Below are positions 11,206 through 60,889 of a DNA stretch of 64,000 nt, piece by piece. Source of the DNA: Candidatus Obscuribacterales bacterium (GTDB lineage Bacteria; Cyanobacteriota; Vampirovibrionia; Obscuribacterales; Obscuribacteraceae); the NCBI GenBank assembly GCA_019744775.1, contig JAIETZ010000002.1:434001-498000 (forward strand), read 5' to 3'. A program made the position numbers and the translations under genes. The notes beneath the pieces are model-generated. The model had not been told where the DNA came from. It did no database searches and saw only the letters and a program-made list of their open reading frames with translations. Each line of letters begins with the position of its first letter. Within the stretch, counting starts at the first letter, position 1.

Positions 11206-11289
11206 TGCTATATTTTAGCGCCTTGCCCGACGTGTACTCCTCCGGACTCTAGAGGTTGTCGGCTGAGTCCCACATGTCAAGGACCATAG

Positions 11290-11405
11290 GAAGCGACGCA
11301 AGAGCGGCGAGGAGCCGGTCGTTAGCGGCGCGATGGTGTAAAGCCGGACGGCAAGCGAAGGTGAAGGCGGTGTGTTATTTCAAACACGCCGCCGGAACCG
11401 GAGCG
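11290..11405 (+). repeat. Dispersed mosaic stem-loop repeat, copy 1
   Basis: This interval shares three separated blocks with the complement of 59967-60138: 11298-11320 (23 of 23 bases identical), 11350-11368 (18 of 19) and 11392-11405 (14 of 14). The sequence between blocks differs. Here the last gap holds a stem GGCGGTGTGTT / AACACGCCGCC (11 bp, one G-U) around ATTTCA (about 11366-11393); the other copy has an unrelated stem at the same place. It sits in the 330-bp gap upstream of glutamate dehydrogenase. No coding capacity is evident. Confidence 0.8.
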
Positions 11406-11441
11406 ATATAAAAAGACTTAATGGGGGATTCTACGATAGCT

Positions 11442-11535: not shown

Positions 11536-12819
11536 ATGGCTACAGTGAAGCCGGTTGAAATTCCAGGAATGGAATGCGAAACGCCTCACTTCCTGATGGC
11601 TCAACGACAGCTCGATGAGATAGCTCTCGAGATGGGTCTTGATCCGGAGCTTCACGAGCGTTTGCGTTATCCCAAGCGTGCTCTAATAGTCACAGTGCCA
11701 GTACGCATGGACGACGGCACAGTAAAAACATTTACCGGCTACCGTGTGCAGCACGATGTTAGCTTAGGACCAGGTAAGGGCGGCATCCGCTTCCATCCCG
11801 AAGTCAACCTCGGCGAAGTTTCCGCATTAGCCATGCTCATGACCTGGAAATGCGCCTTGATGGGTTTACCTTATGGTGGTGCCAAAGGCGGCATTCGCTG
11901 CGAACCATGGAATCTTTCTTTGGGTGAGCAAGAAAGACTAACCAGACGGTACACTTCTGAAATTATCAACTTGATTGGACCGGACAAAGACATTCCGGCT
12001 CCGGATATGTACACCAATGAACAGACAATGGCCTGGATCATGGATACATACTCCATCAACGTCGGTCACACAGTGCCTTCGGTAGTTACCGGTAAGCCTG
12101 TTTCCATCGGCGGATCACTGGGCAGAATGGAAGCCACCGGTCGCGGTGTTGCCTACTGCGTACGCCGCGCCTGCCAGGAATCTGGTATCACTGATAAATC
12201 ACCATCTGTTGTTGTGCAAGGTTTCGGTAATGTCGGCGGAGTAGCTGCCAGACAATTATTCGATGCCGGCTTCAAGGTTGTCGCCGTATCTGACGTGCAT
12301 GGTGGCATTTATTGCTCCGACGGCATAGACATTCCACGCTTGCAAGCCTACGTTTCCGAAATGGGTCGCGTAGAAGGCTTCAGCAACTGCAAGGCCGTAT
12401 CCAATACCGAATTGTTGACACTGCCATGTGATGTGCTGGTGCCGGCTGCTCTGGGCAACCAAATCCACGAAAGAAACATGATGGACATCAACGCCAAGAT
12501 AATTGTCGAAGGTGCTAATGGTCCTGTAGGTCCGGAAGCCGACAGATACTTGCACGAAAAGGGCGTACTCATTGTGCCGGATATTCTGGCTAATGCCGGC
12601 GGCGTAACCGTCAGCTACTTTGAGTGGGTTCAAGGCCTAATGCACTTGTTCTGGTCGGAAGACGAAGTGAATAAGCGCCTGGAAGAGATTATGGGAAGAG
12701 CTTGCGATCAAGTTTTTGCTATGGTCAAAAAGACAGGTCTTCGCCCCAGAATGGCTGCGCTTCGTTTGGCCGTCAGCCGCCTGGCAGAAGCTAAAAAGCT
12801 CAGAGGTCTCTACCCATAA
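11536..12819 (+). CDS. gdhA: Glutamate dehydrogenase (Glu/Leu/Phe/Val dehydrogenase family)
   Basis: A 427-residue enzyme that interconverts glutamate and 2-oxoglutarate plus ammonia. The N-terminal substrate domain has PGKGGIRFHPEVNLGEVSAL, then MTWKCALMGLPYGGAKGGI with the catalytic lysine. The C-terminal Rossmann domain has VVQGFGNVGGVAA and the late motif ANAGGVTVSYFEWVQ. Length (about 420) matches the catabolic RocG/GudB-like NAD-type hexameric enzymes rather than the slightly longer anabolic GdhA, so the symbol is a family label. The ATG has AGGAGGG upstream with good spacing. A strong intrinsic terminator follows, so it is monocistronic. Confidence 0.95.
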   Translation: MATVKPVEIPGMECETPHFLMAQRQLDEIALEMGLDPELHERLRYPKRALIVTVPVRMDDGTVKTFTGYRVQHDVSLGPGKGGIRFHPEVNLGEVSALAMLMTWKCALMGLPYGGAKGGIRCEPWNLSLGEQERLTRRYTSEIINLIGPDKDIPAPDMYTNEQTMAWIMDTYSINVGHTVPSVVTGKPVSIGGSLGRMEATGRGVAYCVRRACQESGITDKSPSVVVQGFGNVGGVAARQLFDAGFKVVAVSDVHGGIYCSDGIDIPRLQAYVSEMGRVEGFSNCKAVSNTELLTLPCDVLVPAALGNQIHERNMMDINAKIIVEGANGPVGPEADRYLHEKGVLIVPDILANAGGVTVSYFEWVQGLMHLFWSEDEVNKRLEEIMGRACDQVFAMVKKTGLRPRMAALRLAVSRLAEAKKLRGLYP

Positions 12820-55136: not shown

Positions 55137-55206
55137 CCCATGGATCAGATTAAATCAAAGCGGGCGCATGCAATGCGCTCCTACAATGACAAACGAAAAA
55201 GAGATT

Positions 55207-55770
55207 TTACTTCTTATTCAAGAAATAGAGGCTGTGGGCGGCGATGGACTGACCGTTGTACTTCGCGCCTGGTTTTTCGTTGTAGGCGACCTTACAAGGA
55301 GCCGTACGCGTAAAGACCATTTGACCAATAGGCATGCCGGCATGCAGACGCACTGGTCTATTGCCTACGTTGACTATTTCCAAAGTAATTGTTGCCGGTG
55401 GATGGCTAAAGCCGGCGTCGATAAATCCGGCGGTGACGTGCACCATAACACCGAGCCTGGCAAGACTGGATTTGCCTGTAATTTGTCCAACAACGTCACG
55501 CGGCAAAGTGAAGCGCTCGAGTGTTGCGCCAAGCACAAAGCCTTGTGGTTTCAAAACAATACTTTCTTGAGCAACGTGAACGAGGCCTTCACTGACTGTT
55601 TTTGAATCGAAAGGATCAATAACCGTCTCTGATTCGTCATAGAAAGAAAAACGATCGGCTAAGCGAACGTCATAGGAGTTCGGCTGGACAAGATTGTCTT
55701 CGTACGGCTCAATTACAAGACGTCCTTCAGCAACTTCTCGTCTTATCTCAAAATCAACAAGTATAGACAT
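55207..55770 (-). CDS. dcd: dCTP deaminase
   Basis: A 187-residue trimeric enzyme converting dCTP to dUTP. The active-site arms are VLGATLERFTLP, GKSSLARLGVMVHVTAGFID and PATITLEIVNVGNRPVRLH, with the catalytic Glu in TLEI. It continues to GMPIGQMVFTRT, and the C-terminal YNGQSIAAHSLYFL matches the family's closing lid. Length is standard. It follows nrdJ on the same strand, separated by a structured 125-bp gap, and both genes supply DNA precursors, so joint regulation is plausible. Confidence 0.96.
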   Translation of the reverse strand: MSILVDFEIRREVAEGRLVIEPYEDNLVQPNSYDVRLADRFSFYDESETVIDPFDSKTVSEGLVHVAQESIVLKPQGFVLGATLERFTLPRDVVGQITGKSSLARLGVMVHVTAGFIDAGFSHPPATITLEIVNVGNRPVRLHAGMPIGQMVFTRTAPCKVAYNEKPGAKYNGQSIAAHSLYFLNKK

Positions 55771-55895: not shown

Positions 55896-57722
55896 TTATA
55901 CATCGCACTCTTCGCCAGGGGCGCAAAAACGCTTGTTTCCATGGGGAAGACTGGAGCCTAAGCCAAGGTTCAAAACCTGCGCCGGACGGCTCTGGTCGCG
56001 GTATACCGTAACTCCCTTAAGTCCGAGATCCCAAGACTTTAGATATGCCTCACGCACATTATCATTTGTTGCATGATGAGCGAAGTTTATAGTCTTTGAA
56101 ACTCCACTATCGGTGTATTTCTGAAAGGCCGCCTGCATTTTCAAATGCCAGGAATAATCGATGTCGTGCGAACAAACAAAAAGACGTTTCACATCGTCGG
56201 GCACTCCTTGCACATTTTCCAGCGTGCCGGTTGCGGCGATTTGACGCATCAAATCTTCGCTATAGAATCCACGCTTGCGCGCGATTGCTTCAAACAATTC
56301 ATTCACTTCAATAAGTTCTTCACCACCGAGAACACGGCGAATAAAACAGACAGCAAATAGAGGTTCTATACCGGATGATGTTCCGGCAATTATGGAAATG
56401 GTACCAGTCGGCGCAATTGCCGTGACTGTAGCATTACGCATCGGTACATTCATCTTGTGCCATTTGCTGTGCGCCCAGTTAGGGAAATTTCCGCGTTCGA
56501 CAGCTAGCCTGCCGGAAGCTTCATGAGCGTGACGTTGGATGAAAGACATCAACTCCTCAGCCTTGCGAATGGCCGTTTCTGAGTCGTAAACGATATTCAT
56601 TTTAATTAGCGCTTCCGCCAATCCCATTACACCGACGCCGATACGACGATTGCCTTTTGCCGCCTTTTCTATGAAAGGCATTGGATAGTGATTGGCTTCA
56701 ATTACGTCGTCGAGGAAACGAACAGCAATTTGCACCATATGCGCAAGTTCTGTCCAATTGAAGTCACTGCCATTCTCATCGACAAATTCGCTGACATTGA
56801 TAGAACCAAGATTACAGGCATCGCCCGGCCCAAGTGGTTGTTCACCGCAAGGATTAGTTGCTTCAATGTCTTCCGTGCCAGGCAGCACTTGCCCATTTTC
56901 ATCAAGCGCTTGAAATAGCGGATCCAGCGCGTTTATGCGATCTATGAAAACAATTCCCGGCTCGCCCGTGGCGTGAGCATTTTCCACTATCAGGTCGAAC
57001 AGATGCTTTGCCTTCACAGTGCGTACAACTTCGCCTGTACCGGGATGCACCAGATCAAAATCACCATCACTACTTACCGCTTGCATAAACTCGTCAGTTA
57101 CAGCAACTGAAATGTTGAAATTGTTTAGTCTGCTTGTCTCTCTTTTACAGGTAATGAATTGCTCAATGTCTGGATGATCAATGCGTAAAATACCCATATT
57201 GGCACCACGCCTGGTACCACCCTGACGAATAGCTTCGGTGGCGGCATCGTACACGGTCATAAAACTAACCGGTCCGGAAGCAACACCAACCGAACTTGAA
57301 ACTGGATCATTTAAAGGACGCAAGCGACTGAAGGCAAATCCGGTGCCGCCGCCTGTTTTGTGAATGAGGGCAGCGTTTTTACAGGTGTCGAAAATGCCTT
57401 CCAATGAATCCGGCACAGGCAAGACAAAACAGGCTGATAATTGTCCGCACTTTTTACCGGCGTTCATCAACGTCGGCGAATTAGGCAGAAATTTATGTTC
57501 GTTCATAACCCGGAAAAACTCCTCTTCCAGGTCGGCAATTTCCACTGCATCCATGCCAAAACGGCTTTCTATCGAGGACAGAGCCTTCGCCACGCGACGG
57601 AAAAGCCCCTCGGCAGTTTCCACAACTTTACCTAATTCATCGGTCAGCAAATAGCGCTTCTCCAAGACCCTGAGAGCGTTCTTGGATAGTTCTTTTGTAG
57701 ATGTGCGGCGGTCGTCCATCAT
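55896..57722 (-). CDS. nrdJ: Adenosylcobalamin-dependent (class II) ribonucleotide reductase
   Basis: A 608-residue class II RNR. The active-site blocks are GQLSACFVLPVPDSLEGIFD (first redox Cys), TGGGTGFAFSRLRPLNDPVS and TNPCGEQPLGPGDACNLGSI with the radical Cys and Glu. ATVTAIAPTGTISIIAGTSS precedes the second Cys region. The C-terminus ends FCAPGEECDV, a C-x5-C pair analogous to the swinging redox pair at the end of class I enzymes, so the chain is complete despite lacking a longer zinc-ribbon tail. It needs coenzyme B12 and works with or without oxygen. ATG 57722 has AAGGG six bases upstream. Paired with dcd downstream. Confidence 0.95.
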   Translation of the reverse strand: MMDDRRTSTKELSKNALRVLEKRYLLTDELGKVVETAEGLFRRVAKALSSIESRFGMDAVEIADLEEEFFRVMNEHKFLPNSPTLMNAGKKCGQLSACFVLPVPDSLEGIFDTCKNAALIHKTGGGTGFAFSRLRPLNDPVSSSVGVASGPVSFMTVYDAATEAIRQGGTRRGANMGILRIDHPDIEQFITCKRETSRLNNFNISVAVTDEFMQAVSSDGDFDLVHPGTGEVVRTVKAKHLFDLIVENAHATGEPGIVFIDRINALDPLFQALDENGQVLPGTEDIEATNPCGEQPLGPGDACNLGSINVSEFVDENGSDFNWTELAHMVQIAVRFLDDVIEANHYPMPFIEKAAKGNRRIGVGVMGLAEALIKMNIVYDSETAIRKAEELMSFIQRHAHEASGRLAVERGNFPNWAHSKWHKMNVPMRNATVTAIAPTGTISIIAGTSSGIEPLFAVCFIRRVLGGEELIEVNELFEAIARKRGFYSEDLMRQIAATGTLENVQGVPDDVKRLFVCSHDIDYSWHLKMQAAFQKYTDSGVSKTINFAHHATNDNVREAYLKSWDLGLKGVTVYRDQSRPAQVLNLGLGSSLPHGNKRFCAPGEECDV

Positions 57723-57809: not shown

Positions 57810-58787
57810 ATGCGCAATGGTCTCTACATAGTTGATTTTCACACTCATATAGTCAGCCAAGCCGACTTCGAGTCCTATTTTGCCGAAGACTGCCAGCACC
57901 ACTTCATTAAGCAACATGGTCCTTTCGTGGAGCGGCTTTTGCGCTTAAGCGATCCGCACTTCAGTGACTTCATGCGACACGTCTCTTTCAATTTTCGTCA
58001 TGAGCTAGCTAGATCTGTCTACAATTTTTGTGGACATCTAGGATTGGTTGAAGCGATTCGCATTTTCAAAACCCACGACTTCAACTATCTGCTCAAAAGC
58101 ATGGATGCACAAGGTATTGATCACGCAATTATTTCATCGCTGGAGCCTTTAACCGTAACGGAAAACTTGATCAAACTTGTTGCCAATCACAAAGATAGAT
58201 TCTCCATTTTTGCCTCCGTACATCGCAACCAGGAAGATCCTGCCGGATACTTCCAACAACTGCTTGAATCCGGTGCGGTGCGTGGACTTAAGTTGCATCC
58301 ACTGGTTGGAGGTTATAACTGCGGCGAACTCCTGGACAAGACTAGAGATGTCCTGAAAGTTGCTTCAGCACATAACTTGCCCGTGTTCATCCACACCGGC
58401 CACATTCCAACTGGCGCGCTTGCCGGACTAAACGGATGCAACGACGCCAAAGCAGTCGAACCTCTTCTAGCAGAATTTCCTGAGATCAATTTCGTGCTAG
58501 CTCACATCGGCTGGGAGTCTTGGCGGACCATGCTTAAGTTGGCGCGCAAGTACCCCAAAGTCTACGTAGAGACGTCCTGGCAGCCGTCTACCATCATCCG
58601 GCGAGCTGTGGACACACTTGGATCGCATCGAGTGATATTCGGCTCTGATTTTCCACTGTTCAAACAAGGACTGGCGCTCAAGCAAGTCGAGCAAGCGCTA
58701 ACTCCCTACGAGTTAGCCGCAGTCGCCTCAGCAAACGCCGCGCGACTTTTGAATCTACCAGCGAAGAAGCTGAGTCCTGCCGCTTAG
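57810..58787 (+). CDS. Amidohydrolase-family (Amidohydro_2) metal-dependent hydrolase
   Basis: A 325-residue TIM-barrel enzyme. The metal-binding motif is VDFHTHIV (HxH), with GLKLHPLVGGYNC, PVFIHTGHIPTG and FVLAHIGWESW supplying further His, and HRVIFGSDFPLFKQ the Asp. This order fits the PF04909 group, which includes decarboxylases and lactonases acting on small carboxylated compounds. Substrate cannot be given. It diverges from nrdJ and overlaps the convergent flavoprotein gene by 4 bp. Confidence 0.85.
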   Translation: MRNGLYIVDFHTHIVSQADFESYFAEDCQHHFIKQHGPFVERLLRLSDPHFSDFMRHVSFNFRHELARSVYNFCGHLGLVEAIRIFKTHDFNYLLKSMDAQGIDHAIISSLEPLTVTENLIKLVANHKDRFSIFASVHRNQEDPAGYFQQLLESGAVRGLKLHPLVGGYNCGELLDKTRDVLKVASAHNLPVFIHTGHIPTGALAGLNGCNDAKAVEPLLAEFPEINFVLAHIGWESWRTMLKLARKYPKVYVETSWQPSTIIRRAVDTLGSHRVIFGSDFPLFKQGLALKQVEQALTPYELAAVASANAARLLNLPAKKLSPAA

Positions 58788-59791
58788 ATGCTCAAGTTGA
58801 GATTGGAGCTGTGTCCCGGGAAGGCTTTCGCTGTCGGGTTGATGTATGTGCAGGCGAAGTTGATGCCGGTGGCAGCTTCAGCAGCGCCTGTGGCAATTAG
58901 TTTCAACTTGGCAGTGTGCGCACAAATGTCACCAGCAGCATAGACGCCGGCAATGTTTGTTTCCATCTTCTCGTTGACAATGATGGCGTTGCCTTCCATG
59001 ATCATGCCCCAGCTCTTCAGGAAGTCCAGGTTGATAACGAAGCCTATGTTGACGATGATGGCATCGCAATCAATTGTCTCTTCTTTGCCTGTGCGGTTGT
59101 CGAACAACACGGCTTTTTCGAGAGTCTGTTTGCCATTGCAAACTATTTGCTTCATTTCATGGAAAGTTCTTACTTCCACTTTGTTGCGGTACATTTCTTC
59201 TACGGATGTTTGCACTGCACGGAATTGATCACGTCTGTGAATCAAGGTCACCTTGTTGGCCAATTGAGAAAATTCATTGGCCCAGTCAACGGCAGAGTCT
59301 CCACCACCGATGATCAAAACATTTTTGCCACGGAACTTTTCTTTGTTCTTAACGGCGTAATAAACCGAGTTACCTTCCAAGCTGTGGTCGTAATCGATAT
59401 CCAGCTTCTTCGGTACGCAAGCGCCAGCACCTAGAGCGAGCAAAACTGTCTTGGTGTAATGTTCCTGACCGTTGTCTGTTTTTAGCTTGAGAATATTGCC
59501 GTCAATGCGCTCAAAGCCAATGACTTTCTCGCCCAATGCTATTGATGGTTTGAAGAGTCCTGCTTGAACGGCAAGGTTCTTGGCTAAGTCTTTGGCCAAA
59601 ATCTTCGGGTGTCCAGCTACGTCGTACACGTACTTCTCAGGATAGAGAGCAGTTAGCTGTCCGCCTAATTCGGAAAGGACATCAATAGTTTTGGTCTTCA
59701 GACCTCTGAGTCCTGCATAAAACGTGGCGAATAGACCTGTCGGTCCGCCACCAATAATCGTTACGTCGAAAACATCCATTTGCTGAACCAC
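58784..59791 (-). CDS. Thioredoxin-reductase-like ferredoxin/flavodoxin-NADP+ reductase (type 2)
   Basis: A 335-residue FAD/NADPH oxidoreductase. FAD binds at VTIIGGGPTGLFATFYAGLR and NADPH at NVLIIGGGDSAVDWANEFSQ plus LIHRRDQFRA; a C-terminal FAD motif is GVYAAGDICAHT. The CxxC disulfide of thioredoxin reductase is absent, and the length and C-terminal helix match the YumC-type ferredoxin-NADP+ reductases. It likely moves electrons between NADPH and ferredoxin or flavodoxin. GTG 59791 has GGGAG four bases upstream; ATG 59779 is the alternative. Its symbol is uncertain, so none is given. Confidence 0.88.
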   Translation of the reverse strand: MVQQMDVFDVTIIGGGPTGLFATFYAGLRGLKTKTIDVLSELGGQLTALYPEKYVYDVAGHPKILAKDLAKNLAVQAGLFKPSIALGEKVIGFERIDGNILKLKTDNGQEHYTKTVLLALGAGACVPKKLDIDYDHSLEGNSVYYAVKNKEKFRGKNVLIIGGGDSAVDWANEFSQLANKVTLIHRRDQFRAVQTSVEEMYRNKVEVRTFHEMKQIVCNGKQTLEKAVLFDNRTGKEETIDCDAIIVNIGFVINLDFLKSWGMIMEGNAIIVNEKMETNIAGVYAAGDICAHTAKLKLIATGAAEAATGINFACTYINPTAKAFPGHSSNLNLSI

Positions 59792-59966
59792 GAGACTCCC
59801 TATTACTCAATCGGCTATTTTAATACACTTGCAGCCCTCATGTCTGGCTTTTCAAGTGTTTACCCGCAATTGTAAATGCACGCAGGTACCGATTTCTTGT
59901 CGATCCTACTATTGGATAACGCCCAAAAGAGAAACTTCTTTTATCAATGTAATAACTTAATATTTA

Positions 59967-60138
59967 CGCTCCGGTTCCGGTTCGAGGACACATTTAGTGT
60001 CCTCTCATTGCCTCCACCTTCGCTTGCCCCGACGAGACATTTAGTCTCGTCTCCTTGGCATATCCATCTGCGCTTCGATCCGAGGACACATTTAGTGTCC
60101 TCTCCTTGACCGGCTCCTCGCCGCTCTTGCTCAGCTTC
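59967..60138 (-). repeat. Dispersed mosaic stem-loop repeat, copy 2
   Basis: Read on the minus strand, this copy shares the three blocks of copy 1 (11290-11405): 60108-60130, 60010-60028 and 59967-59980. Between blocks it carries three 21-base stem-loops: GAGGACAC-ATTTA-GTGTCCTC at 59984-60004 and 60082-60102, and GACGAGAC-ATTTA-GTCTCGTC at 60031-60051. All have the same loop. No coding frame. It occupies most of the gap between the reductase and the His-rich membrane protein gene. Confidence 0.85.
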
Positions 60139-60172
60139 TACAACTATAGTCGCGAAGCTCTCAAATCAATTT

Positions 60173-60889
60173 CTAGCGGTTGACAATAGTCTTGAGTCTT
60201 GTGCCGTCCGGCGATTGTACGTGGACGTTATAAGAGCGTACTTCTTGGTAGTTCTGGTAGGTCGGATTGATGGCGTAAGGCACTGGTACGGCTTGAGCCA
60301 TAACGGGAGCTTGGCTCAAAGGTCTAGCTTCAATAGCTCCCGGCAGCGCACTTATCATCGTATTGTCCTGGATTGGCGCAGGCGTCACAGCAGAAGCACC
60401 GGCTGGTGAATATTGGGCGTAGTTCTGGCGTTGCGGCATCGGCATGGCGTTGCGCATACCGGCTAAAAGTACCTGATCAGCCTGAGTGCCTTGGGTTTTG
60501 ACCACCTTGTCGTTGGTATTGTGGCTGAGGAAGTAAACGACCCCTAACCAAAGGACCATACCACCAAAGAGAGTAGCAAAGAGCATTGATGGTGTAACAG
60601 GCAAGCCTGTAAAAAATTGTCCCCACTTGGAGCCGACCATAGTGTCAGTTGTCTGCACATGGGCCGGGTTAGTCGAGCCGGCATGATTATGGTGGCTGTG
60701 GTTTTCGCCGCCCTCGTGCTGGTGGCTGTCATTGCCGAGGAAATGGTTGAGAACGCCCATTATCCCTTGACCACCCTGCCCGGTGCCACCTTGATGAGCG
60801 CCGTAATGGCCGCTTAAATGGTGAGCTCCGGCGTCGTGATGGCTACCGCCAAGATCATAATGATCGCCAATGTCATGAAAATCGCTCAT
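60173..60889 (-). CDS. Single-span membrane protein with His-rich N-terminus
   Basis: 238 residues. The N-terminal 80 residues are extraordinarily rich in His, Gly and Asp (GSHHDAGAHHLSGHYGAHQG, HQHEGGENHSHHNHAG). One helix lies at about 100-125 (SMLFATLFGGMVLWLGVVYF), followed by a Gln/Pro/Ala-rich exported region. The His clusters could bind Ni, Zn, Cu or Co on the cytoplasmic side, as in metallochaperones or metal stores, but no transporter or metalloenzyme gene adjoins. An alternative is a disordered, charge-regulated anchor. The mosaic repeat lies just beyond its 3' end. Function unassigned. Confidence 0.65.
   Translation of the reverse strand: MSDFHDIGDHYDLGGSHHDAGAHHLSGHYGAHQGGTGQGGQGIMGVLNHFLGNDSHQHEGGENHSHHNHAGSTNPAHVQTTDTMVGSKWGQFFTGLPVTPSMLFATLFGGMVLWLGVVYFLSHNTNDKVVKTQGTQADQVLLAGMRNAMPMPQRQNYAQYSPAGASAVTPAPIQDNTMISALPGAIEARPLSQAPVMAQAVPVPYAINPTYQNYQEVRSYNVHVQSPDGTRLKTIVNR

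Follow-up and report, generated by a model that had tools for sequence, protein, structure and literature searches.

A folded interspersed repeat of Obscuribacterales, a putative non-autonomous mobile element

The window, i.e. the whole 64,000-nt stretch analysed, is C2:434001-498000 of a genome of 4,104,983 bases in 13 contigs, and it carries three copies of a folded repeat. Copy 1 is in sense orientation to a glutamate dehydrogenase gene starting at 11536 (ELFV_dehydrogenase downstream). Copy 2, also sense, lies between the co-directional genes 60173-60889 and 58784-59791, and copy 3 is antisense between the genes 55896-57722 and 55207-55770, both on the minus strand. The features are given below, with scores from R1, a covariance model of 20 pairs.

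11288-11410, plus strand: copy 1, 123 nt, R1 score 90.6 bits, MFE structure equal to the consensus fold
11293-11331 (arms 11293-11299 and 11325-11331), plus strand: P1 helix of copy 1, enclosing the first hairpin
11302-11320, plus strand: first hairpin of copy 1 with a GANGA-type pentaloop, corresponding to block 1
11343-11352, plus strand: P2 of copy 1, a GCC-GGAC-GGC hairpin
11355-11404, plus strand: P3 of copy 1 with GNA/GNA internal loops, its two sides corresponding to blocks 2 and 3
11366-11393, plus strand: apical stem-loop, the variable part of P3 in copy 1
11400-11403, plus strand: GGAG near the 3' end of copy 1
59962-60140, minus strand: copy 2, 179 nt, R1 score 47.9 bits
60080-60107, minus strand: module B insert of copy 2 after the first hairpin, AAGGAGAGGACACTAAATGTGTCCTCGG
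60029-60056, minus strand: module B insert of copy 2 in the P2 loop, AAGGAGACGAGACTAAATGTCTCGTCGG
59981-60009, minus strand: module B' insert of copy 2 in the P3 terminal loop, AATGAGAGGACACTAAATGTGTCCTCGAA
55796-55894, plus strand: copy 3, diverged type II, R1 score 44.7 bits, E 6e-7

A preliminary description of the window had reported three blocks common to 11290-11405 and the complement of 59967-60138, and their positions and identities were reproduced. Block 1 (11298-11320 on the plus strand and 60108-60130 on the minus strand) is identical at 23/23 positions, block 2 (11350-11368 plus, 60010-60028 minus) at 18/19, and block 3 (11392-11405 plus, 59967-59980 minus) at 14/14, with 0.00, 0.02, and 0.17 matches, respectively, expected by chance in the window. 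The order of the blocks is the same in both copies, and the spacers between them differ and form different hairpins. The picture of conserved blocks with structured spacers was correct, except that the blocks themselves belong to a single RNA-like fold, as its paired or loop parts. The observation holds and was understated; copy 3, which is more diverged, had been overlooked and was found by the covariance model search.

The element is about 100 nt long, up to about 180 nt, and the three blocks are its invariant parts. In P1, a GNA/GNA loop separates two short helices, and inside P1 lies a hairpin capped by a GANGA pentaloop. A variable joint of 7-12 nt lies between the P1 domain and P2 (GCC-GGAN-GGC). 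P3 has the order GC, GNA/GNA, GGY, GNA/GNA, GC, loop, so that helices of 2-3 bp are joined by GNA/GNA 3x3 internal loops, and a GNA loop is exchanged for Watson-Crick pairs in some copies (C1:417161, GCAATGC/GCATTGC). The end consensus is ACAAGAAGCG...GGAGCGTTANA. Copy 1 folds to the family consensus with a z of -4.1. Its orthologous copy in the relative G001 (JAKFVJ, Candidatus Obscuribacterales D3_Bin_14, a record presumed from identical loci, with flanks mostly about 87-97% identical) has a different, still paired P3 apical loop. The three inserts of about 28 nt in copy 2 fold on their own and leave all core helices intact (MFE -71.7 kcal/mol, z -6.4).

The fold is conserved by compensatory changes. 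Paired changes in the stem are visible already among the block 1 matches (GGC/GCC, TGC/GCA, and GCC/GGC). In alignment A1, with 28 copies and a structure drawn by hand, pairing holds in 98.4% of the cells and double changes occupy 44 cells, compared with 11 after shuffling; RNAalifold recovered the same helices from this alignment except P2. When 102 copies were aligned to R1, pairing held in 98.3% of the cells and double-sided changes occurred at 19/20 pairs, including all six pairs of the first hairpin. Compensatory double-change cells numbered 319 against 84.5 in shuffles, and controls with the partner slid gave at most 49 with pairing destroyed. This alignment is fitted to the structure, and RNAalifold, being independent of it, tests the fold more cleanly: without guidance, the same fold was obtained in this genus and in other genera. 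At paired positions of the fitted alignment, G-T outnumbers A-C 32 to 10, and the folding strand is therefore probably the sense strand. Among 18 orthologous pairs of copies, 12 pair positions changed on both sides, with 11 still paired, and 18 changed on one side, with 10 still paired. Because the double changes cluster in few loci, both selection on the fold and replacement by another copy are possible.

The copy number is high. Block 1 alone was found at 27 places in the genome at up to 3 mismatches, and at none with the reversed control. R1 recognized 112 places at E<=1, three of them in the window, and a repeat search that scored fewer candidates gave 104 at E<=0.001. The doubts attached to the preliminary description, that only two copies might exist or that they might belong to a known RNA family, are both removed, as the genome holds more than 100 copies and no family of Rfam matches. 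In Rfam 15, no relevant covariance-model match was obtained for the whole window at gathering score or for eight loci at E<=0.5. The family is new and absent from Rfam, and no literature on such repeats in Obscuribacterales was found.

R1 gave 72 hits in G001 and 117 in G002 (SBAT, titled Chloroflexi, about 78% identical, its record likewise presumed from identical loci). Weak hits in other genera represent genus-specific versions with the same fold. R2, a second model, matched 20 of 40 sampled family genomes and 14 of 24 genera in a patchy manner, with at least 91 hits in G010, at least 49 in G180, and 0 in many sampled genomes; no match was found with stricter filters in 145 other genomes of the phylum sample. 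Short versions are present on two further Melainabacteria contigs (L051 and L082). Genera of one family differ in copy number, from 0 up to about 100, and the differences are unrelated to the presence of Y1_Tnp or RVT_1. An exact-pattern scan of viral contigs gave 13 hits, all chance matches according to R1 (E >= 0.03). The pattern scan of genome contigs matched many unrelated high-GC genomes, and those hits lacking the rest of the element were taken as chance. The result is a family-wide structured element of non-photosynthetic relatives of cyanobacteria, with about 110 copies per genome in one genus, and annotators gain a covariance model for it.

Genes around the copies were called with an own hexamer caller, so that single calls may err, and tRNAs were added. 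In co-directional spacers, 53 copies are sense and 10 antisense (p 3e-8). Divergent spacers hold 29 copies and convergent spacers 12, and in the divergent ones 22/28 copies lie nearer the gene sharing their orientation. No bias of replication strand was found (58:47, replication judged from skew); orientation follows transcription, not replication. The elements abut gene starts: the 3' end is up to 20 nt from the next start in 45/82 cases, and 14/98 copies lie within -1 to 3 nt of a called start. In nearly all of these, GGAG or a similar sequence precedes the start by 6-10 nt; about 14 copies supply the Shine-Dalgarno sequence. For six copies, a mature tRNA follows 0-7 nt after the 3' end. Both the sense orientation and the position at gene starts are beyond what could be seen in the preliminary description. 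Among 60 downstream proteins scanned against Pfam, 8 are ribosomal (S5, L4, L13, L25, L35, S2, L15, and a fragment of S12), which gives p of about 4e-6 against an assumed 55 of 3600. Other downstream genes code for SmpB, RF-1, ThrRS, NusB, DnaK, and ATP synthase subunits, and the remainder are functionally mixed. At C3:444323-444700 (L208), tRNA-Arg, an element, tRNA-Lys, a second element, and a 3' piece of tRNA-Lys, together with the bases after it, follow each other, a direct repeat such as is left by tRNA-targeted integration or tandem duplication.

Presence of the element differs between close species. Thirty-six G001 copies could be tested, as their flanks map to examined parts of this genome. 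For 26 of them a copy is present at the orthologous position, and at the other 10 sites this genome has a short spacer. These ten comprise 8 sense, 0 antisense, and 2 mixed cases and include the rpsB-tsf spacer and, as read from flanking codons, the rpsM-rpsK and atpA-atpG spacers. The copy at these sites usually begins a few nt past the upstream stop codon, and sometimes a few nt are replaced. Conversely, two copies of this genome (C1:261889 and C2:387802) are absent in G002. Both relatives have a copy at C13:133010 and this genome has none, so some of the differences may be losses.

Of the possibilities raised in the preliminary description (a mobile non-autonomous element, a REP-like family, or a recombination-active array), the first is the best supported, by the many dispersed copies, the presence or absence at orthologous sites, and the lack of a gene of its own. 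The array can be at most a minor contribution, as tandem pairs are few. With moderate confidence, the family is considered a non-autonomous mobile element that folds as a single strand and serves as, or is tolerated as, a portable 5' leader. An enzyme of the host or of an element would copy and insert it in trans, recognizing the folded single strand. The elements would land, or mainly survive, in transcribed spacers, with enrichment before ribosomal-protein and other housekeeping genes, because a sense copy would there be a benign leader. Since the element ends in GGAGC-GTTANA plus an A-rich stretch, a sense copy could act as Shine-Dalgarno sequence and spacer. Smaller hairpins, modules B and C, would repeatedly enter or replace the terminal loops and so give the mosaic look. 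Against mobility stand the enrichment in ribosomal operons, unusual for a purely selfish element, and the fact that most copies are common to both close species. Furthermore, the usual hallmarks of transposition are missing, as there is neither target duplication nor terminal inverted repeats, and Y1_Tnp, TnpB, and RVT_1 are all absent from this genome.

Rather unlikely is a cis-acting functional RNA, a 5'-leader or intercistronic element that has spread as a regulon and controls how growth-related operons are translated, processed, or stabilized. The strongly conserved structure, the sense bias, the abutment to starts and tRNA 5' ends, and the ribosomal and other growth-related genes downstream would suit it, and with GGAG inside a P3 internal loop, access of the ribosome could depend on folding. 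On the other hand, the remaining downstream genes are mixed, 10 of the 63 co-directional copies are antisense, and 12 copies lie between convergent genes. A riboswitch or the leader of a single regulon would have a uniform set of downstream genes and only sense copies; here ribosomal proteins are enriched and the other genes are diverse. Presence varies between close species even at the rpsM-rpsK, rpsB-tsf, and atpA-atpG spacers, and half of the sampled family genomes have none.

Within the reading as a mobile element, a bolder version is proposed only tentatively, and it is rather improbable: a bacterial mobile element of a new type that moves in connection with transcription, is recognized through its folded sense strand, and delivers a ribosome-binding leader. 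Recognition could concern the transcript or, at strongly transcribed genes, the exposed non-template strand of the DNA, and the insertions would enter, in sense orientation, the leaders and spacers of operons with the highest expression. None of the machineries searched for (known transposase, TnpB, or reverse transcriptase) would be needed. Several features rarely joined come together in the element: its covariation is of RNA grade, it is apparently mobile without known machinery, it is strongly sense-oriented, it prefers ribosomal and tRNA operons, and it supplies Shine-Dalgarno sequences. The mode of movement of interspersed bacterial repeats, and their possible use as ready-made leaders, are directly testable here with reporters and close genomes.

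Extra hairpins are tolerated in the terminal loops. Length expansions of at least 12 nt are all placed there (22/22 here and 17/17 in relatives), although the aligner of the model tends to place them in loops, and in copy 2 of the window one insert is really in the P1 junction. The exchangeable stem-loops are such extra hairpins, and some represent a second small repeat. Module B (AAGGAGA-arm-TAAAT-arm-TCGG) was found by pattern at 16 places, about 13 within elements, two within an unrelated palindromic repeat of the TTGTCATTCCGAGC...GAGGAATCT type, and one elsewhere (L266). In the two copies of this palindrome, L264 (C7:111152) and L265 (C10:30502), which are dispersed and read TTGTCATTCCGAGC...GCGAGGAATCT, it occupies the GC-GAA-GC loop; module B is therefore an independent, loop-inserting small repeat. 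Module C (GTAGCGAAGTAGCGACGAAGGAGCTACGGAGCGGACTTG), rich in GC-GNA-GC units, occupies four places (C2:539366, C3:575604, C11:132791, and C11:132918), each in the first hairpin of an element. At C3:655571, the P3 loop differs in the orthologous G001 copy, so loops change at a fixed locus. Another dispersed palindrome, GGGCGCATGCAATGCGCYCCTACA, lies at 55162-55185 of the window, and near-identical copies of it stand beside several elements elsewhere in the genome.

Nostoc belongs to the sister group, and tiny repeats nested within other repeats, with the mobilizing enzyme not known, were reportedly described there by Elhai et al. in 2008. Compared by description, module B behaves like these small dispersed repeats, whereas the main element is larger and RNA-like with covariation. 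Ectopic gene conversion, by which the hairpin swaps would come from recombination between copies and not from insertion of a second small repeat, is quite improbable as an explanation of the mosaic. The difference at C3:655571 is a replacement and not a clean insertion (L214 vs. L117), and clusters of double changes separate two orthologous pairs, as gene conversion would predict; module B, however, also occurs in two copies of the unrelated palindrome and once elsewhere, i.e. outside element copies, so it moves independently of the element.

The search for signs and machinery of transposition was negative. There was no excess of flank k-mers over shuffles and no clean target duplication at the 10 aligned sites, where the relatives are several percent diverged. 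Terminal inverted repeats are lacking, and the end consensus is not an inverted repeat. Pairing of the flanks around the element showed no excess, and a symmetric flank signal failed a later stem test. Compared with an integron attC site, a single long hairpin with pairing core sites, the fold has two domains, and its two ends pair no more than shuffles. No Y1_Tnp/RAYT was found in this genome or in G001, G002, G004, G010, G174, and G180, all copy-rich, and the control genomes were positive. TnpB is absent from this genome, RVT_1 had no match in this genome or in G010, and the presence of Y1_Tnp and RVT_1 does not track copy number across the family (40 genomes for RVT_1). An IS200/IS605-TnpB associated element is rejected, with neither TnpA (Y1) nor TnpB in the genome, and so is a derivative of a retroelement or group II intron, with no RVT_1 in this genome or in G010.

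A REP/BIME-like DNA structural repeat, mobilized by RAYT (Y1 HUH) and acting on DNA topology or termination, is very improbable and already largely refuted; the element is small, intergenic, hairpin-forming, and of high copy number, but the REP-like proposal of the preliminary description fails because the copies are no short palindromes, have a two-domain architecture, strand asymmetry, and transcription-linked orientation, and no Y1_Tnp accompanies them in this genome or in the six copy-rich relatives. Similarly remote is a SINE-like RNA whose transcript is copied back to DNA by a reverse transcriptase in trans, a process consistent with the RNA-like covariation, the sense orientation, and the few A-rich nucleotides that follow its 3' end also where no start codon is near, but not with the lack of RVT_1 here and in G010 (at least 91 R2 hits), of correspondence between reverse transcriptase and copy number over 40 genomes, or of target duplication.

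The element, as a non-autonomous mobile element, works like other bacterial interspersed repeats and is closest to BOX (PMC3049150) and MITEs (PMC2229807), yet it lacks tested MITE and REP properties. BOX of Streptococcus pneumoniae (boxA-boxB-boxC) is small, intergenic, and present in high copy number, its optional internal modules fold independently, its RNA structure is predicted, it is thought to affect co-transcribed genes, and it was proposed as a non-autonomous mobile element (PMC3049150). Compared by description, the element here is likewise small, high-copy, intergenic, modular, and folded, but the terminal inverted repeats of BOX, which resemble those of an IS (PMC3049150), have no counterpart in the element, which also lacks a target duplication, and the modules inserted here are also found in unrelated repeats. 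Bacterial MITEs such as ERIC/IRU and Correia/NEMIS are about 100-155 bp long, intergenic, and co-transcribed, with longer forms arising by internal insertions, such as the 155-bp Correia form with a 50-bp internal sequence (PMC2229807). The element resembles this class (BOX/ERIC/Correia) in being small, non-autonomous, high-copy, and intergenic, but the features that define MITEs, terminal inverted repeats and target duplications (PMC2229807), were not found, and membership is rejected. REP/REPIN sequences with RAYT (PMC3116915; PMC3733652) are also hairpin-forming, dispersed, and non-autonomous, but here there is no Y1 transposase and no 20-40 bp palindrome with tagged foot or inverted doublet, and the two-domain fold of 100 nt is larger.

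Some copies of the Rickettsia palindromic elements may be translated in frame (PMC2229807). A comparable copy at C3:389265-389361 (L206) is apparently translated in frame as an N-terminal extension of a signal-peptide-like protein, but in-frame copies are rare here and most are intergenic. A nearly identical copy is kept at this site in a relative (L055).
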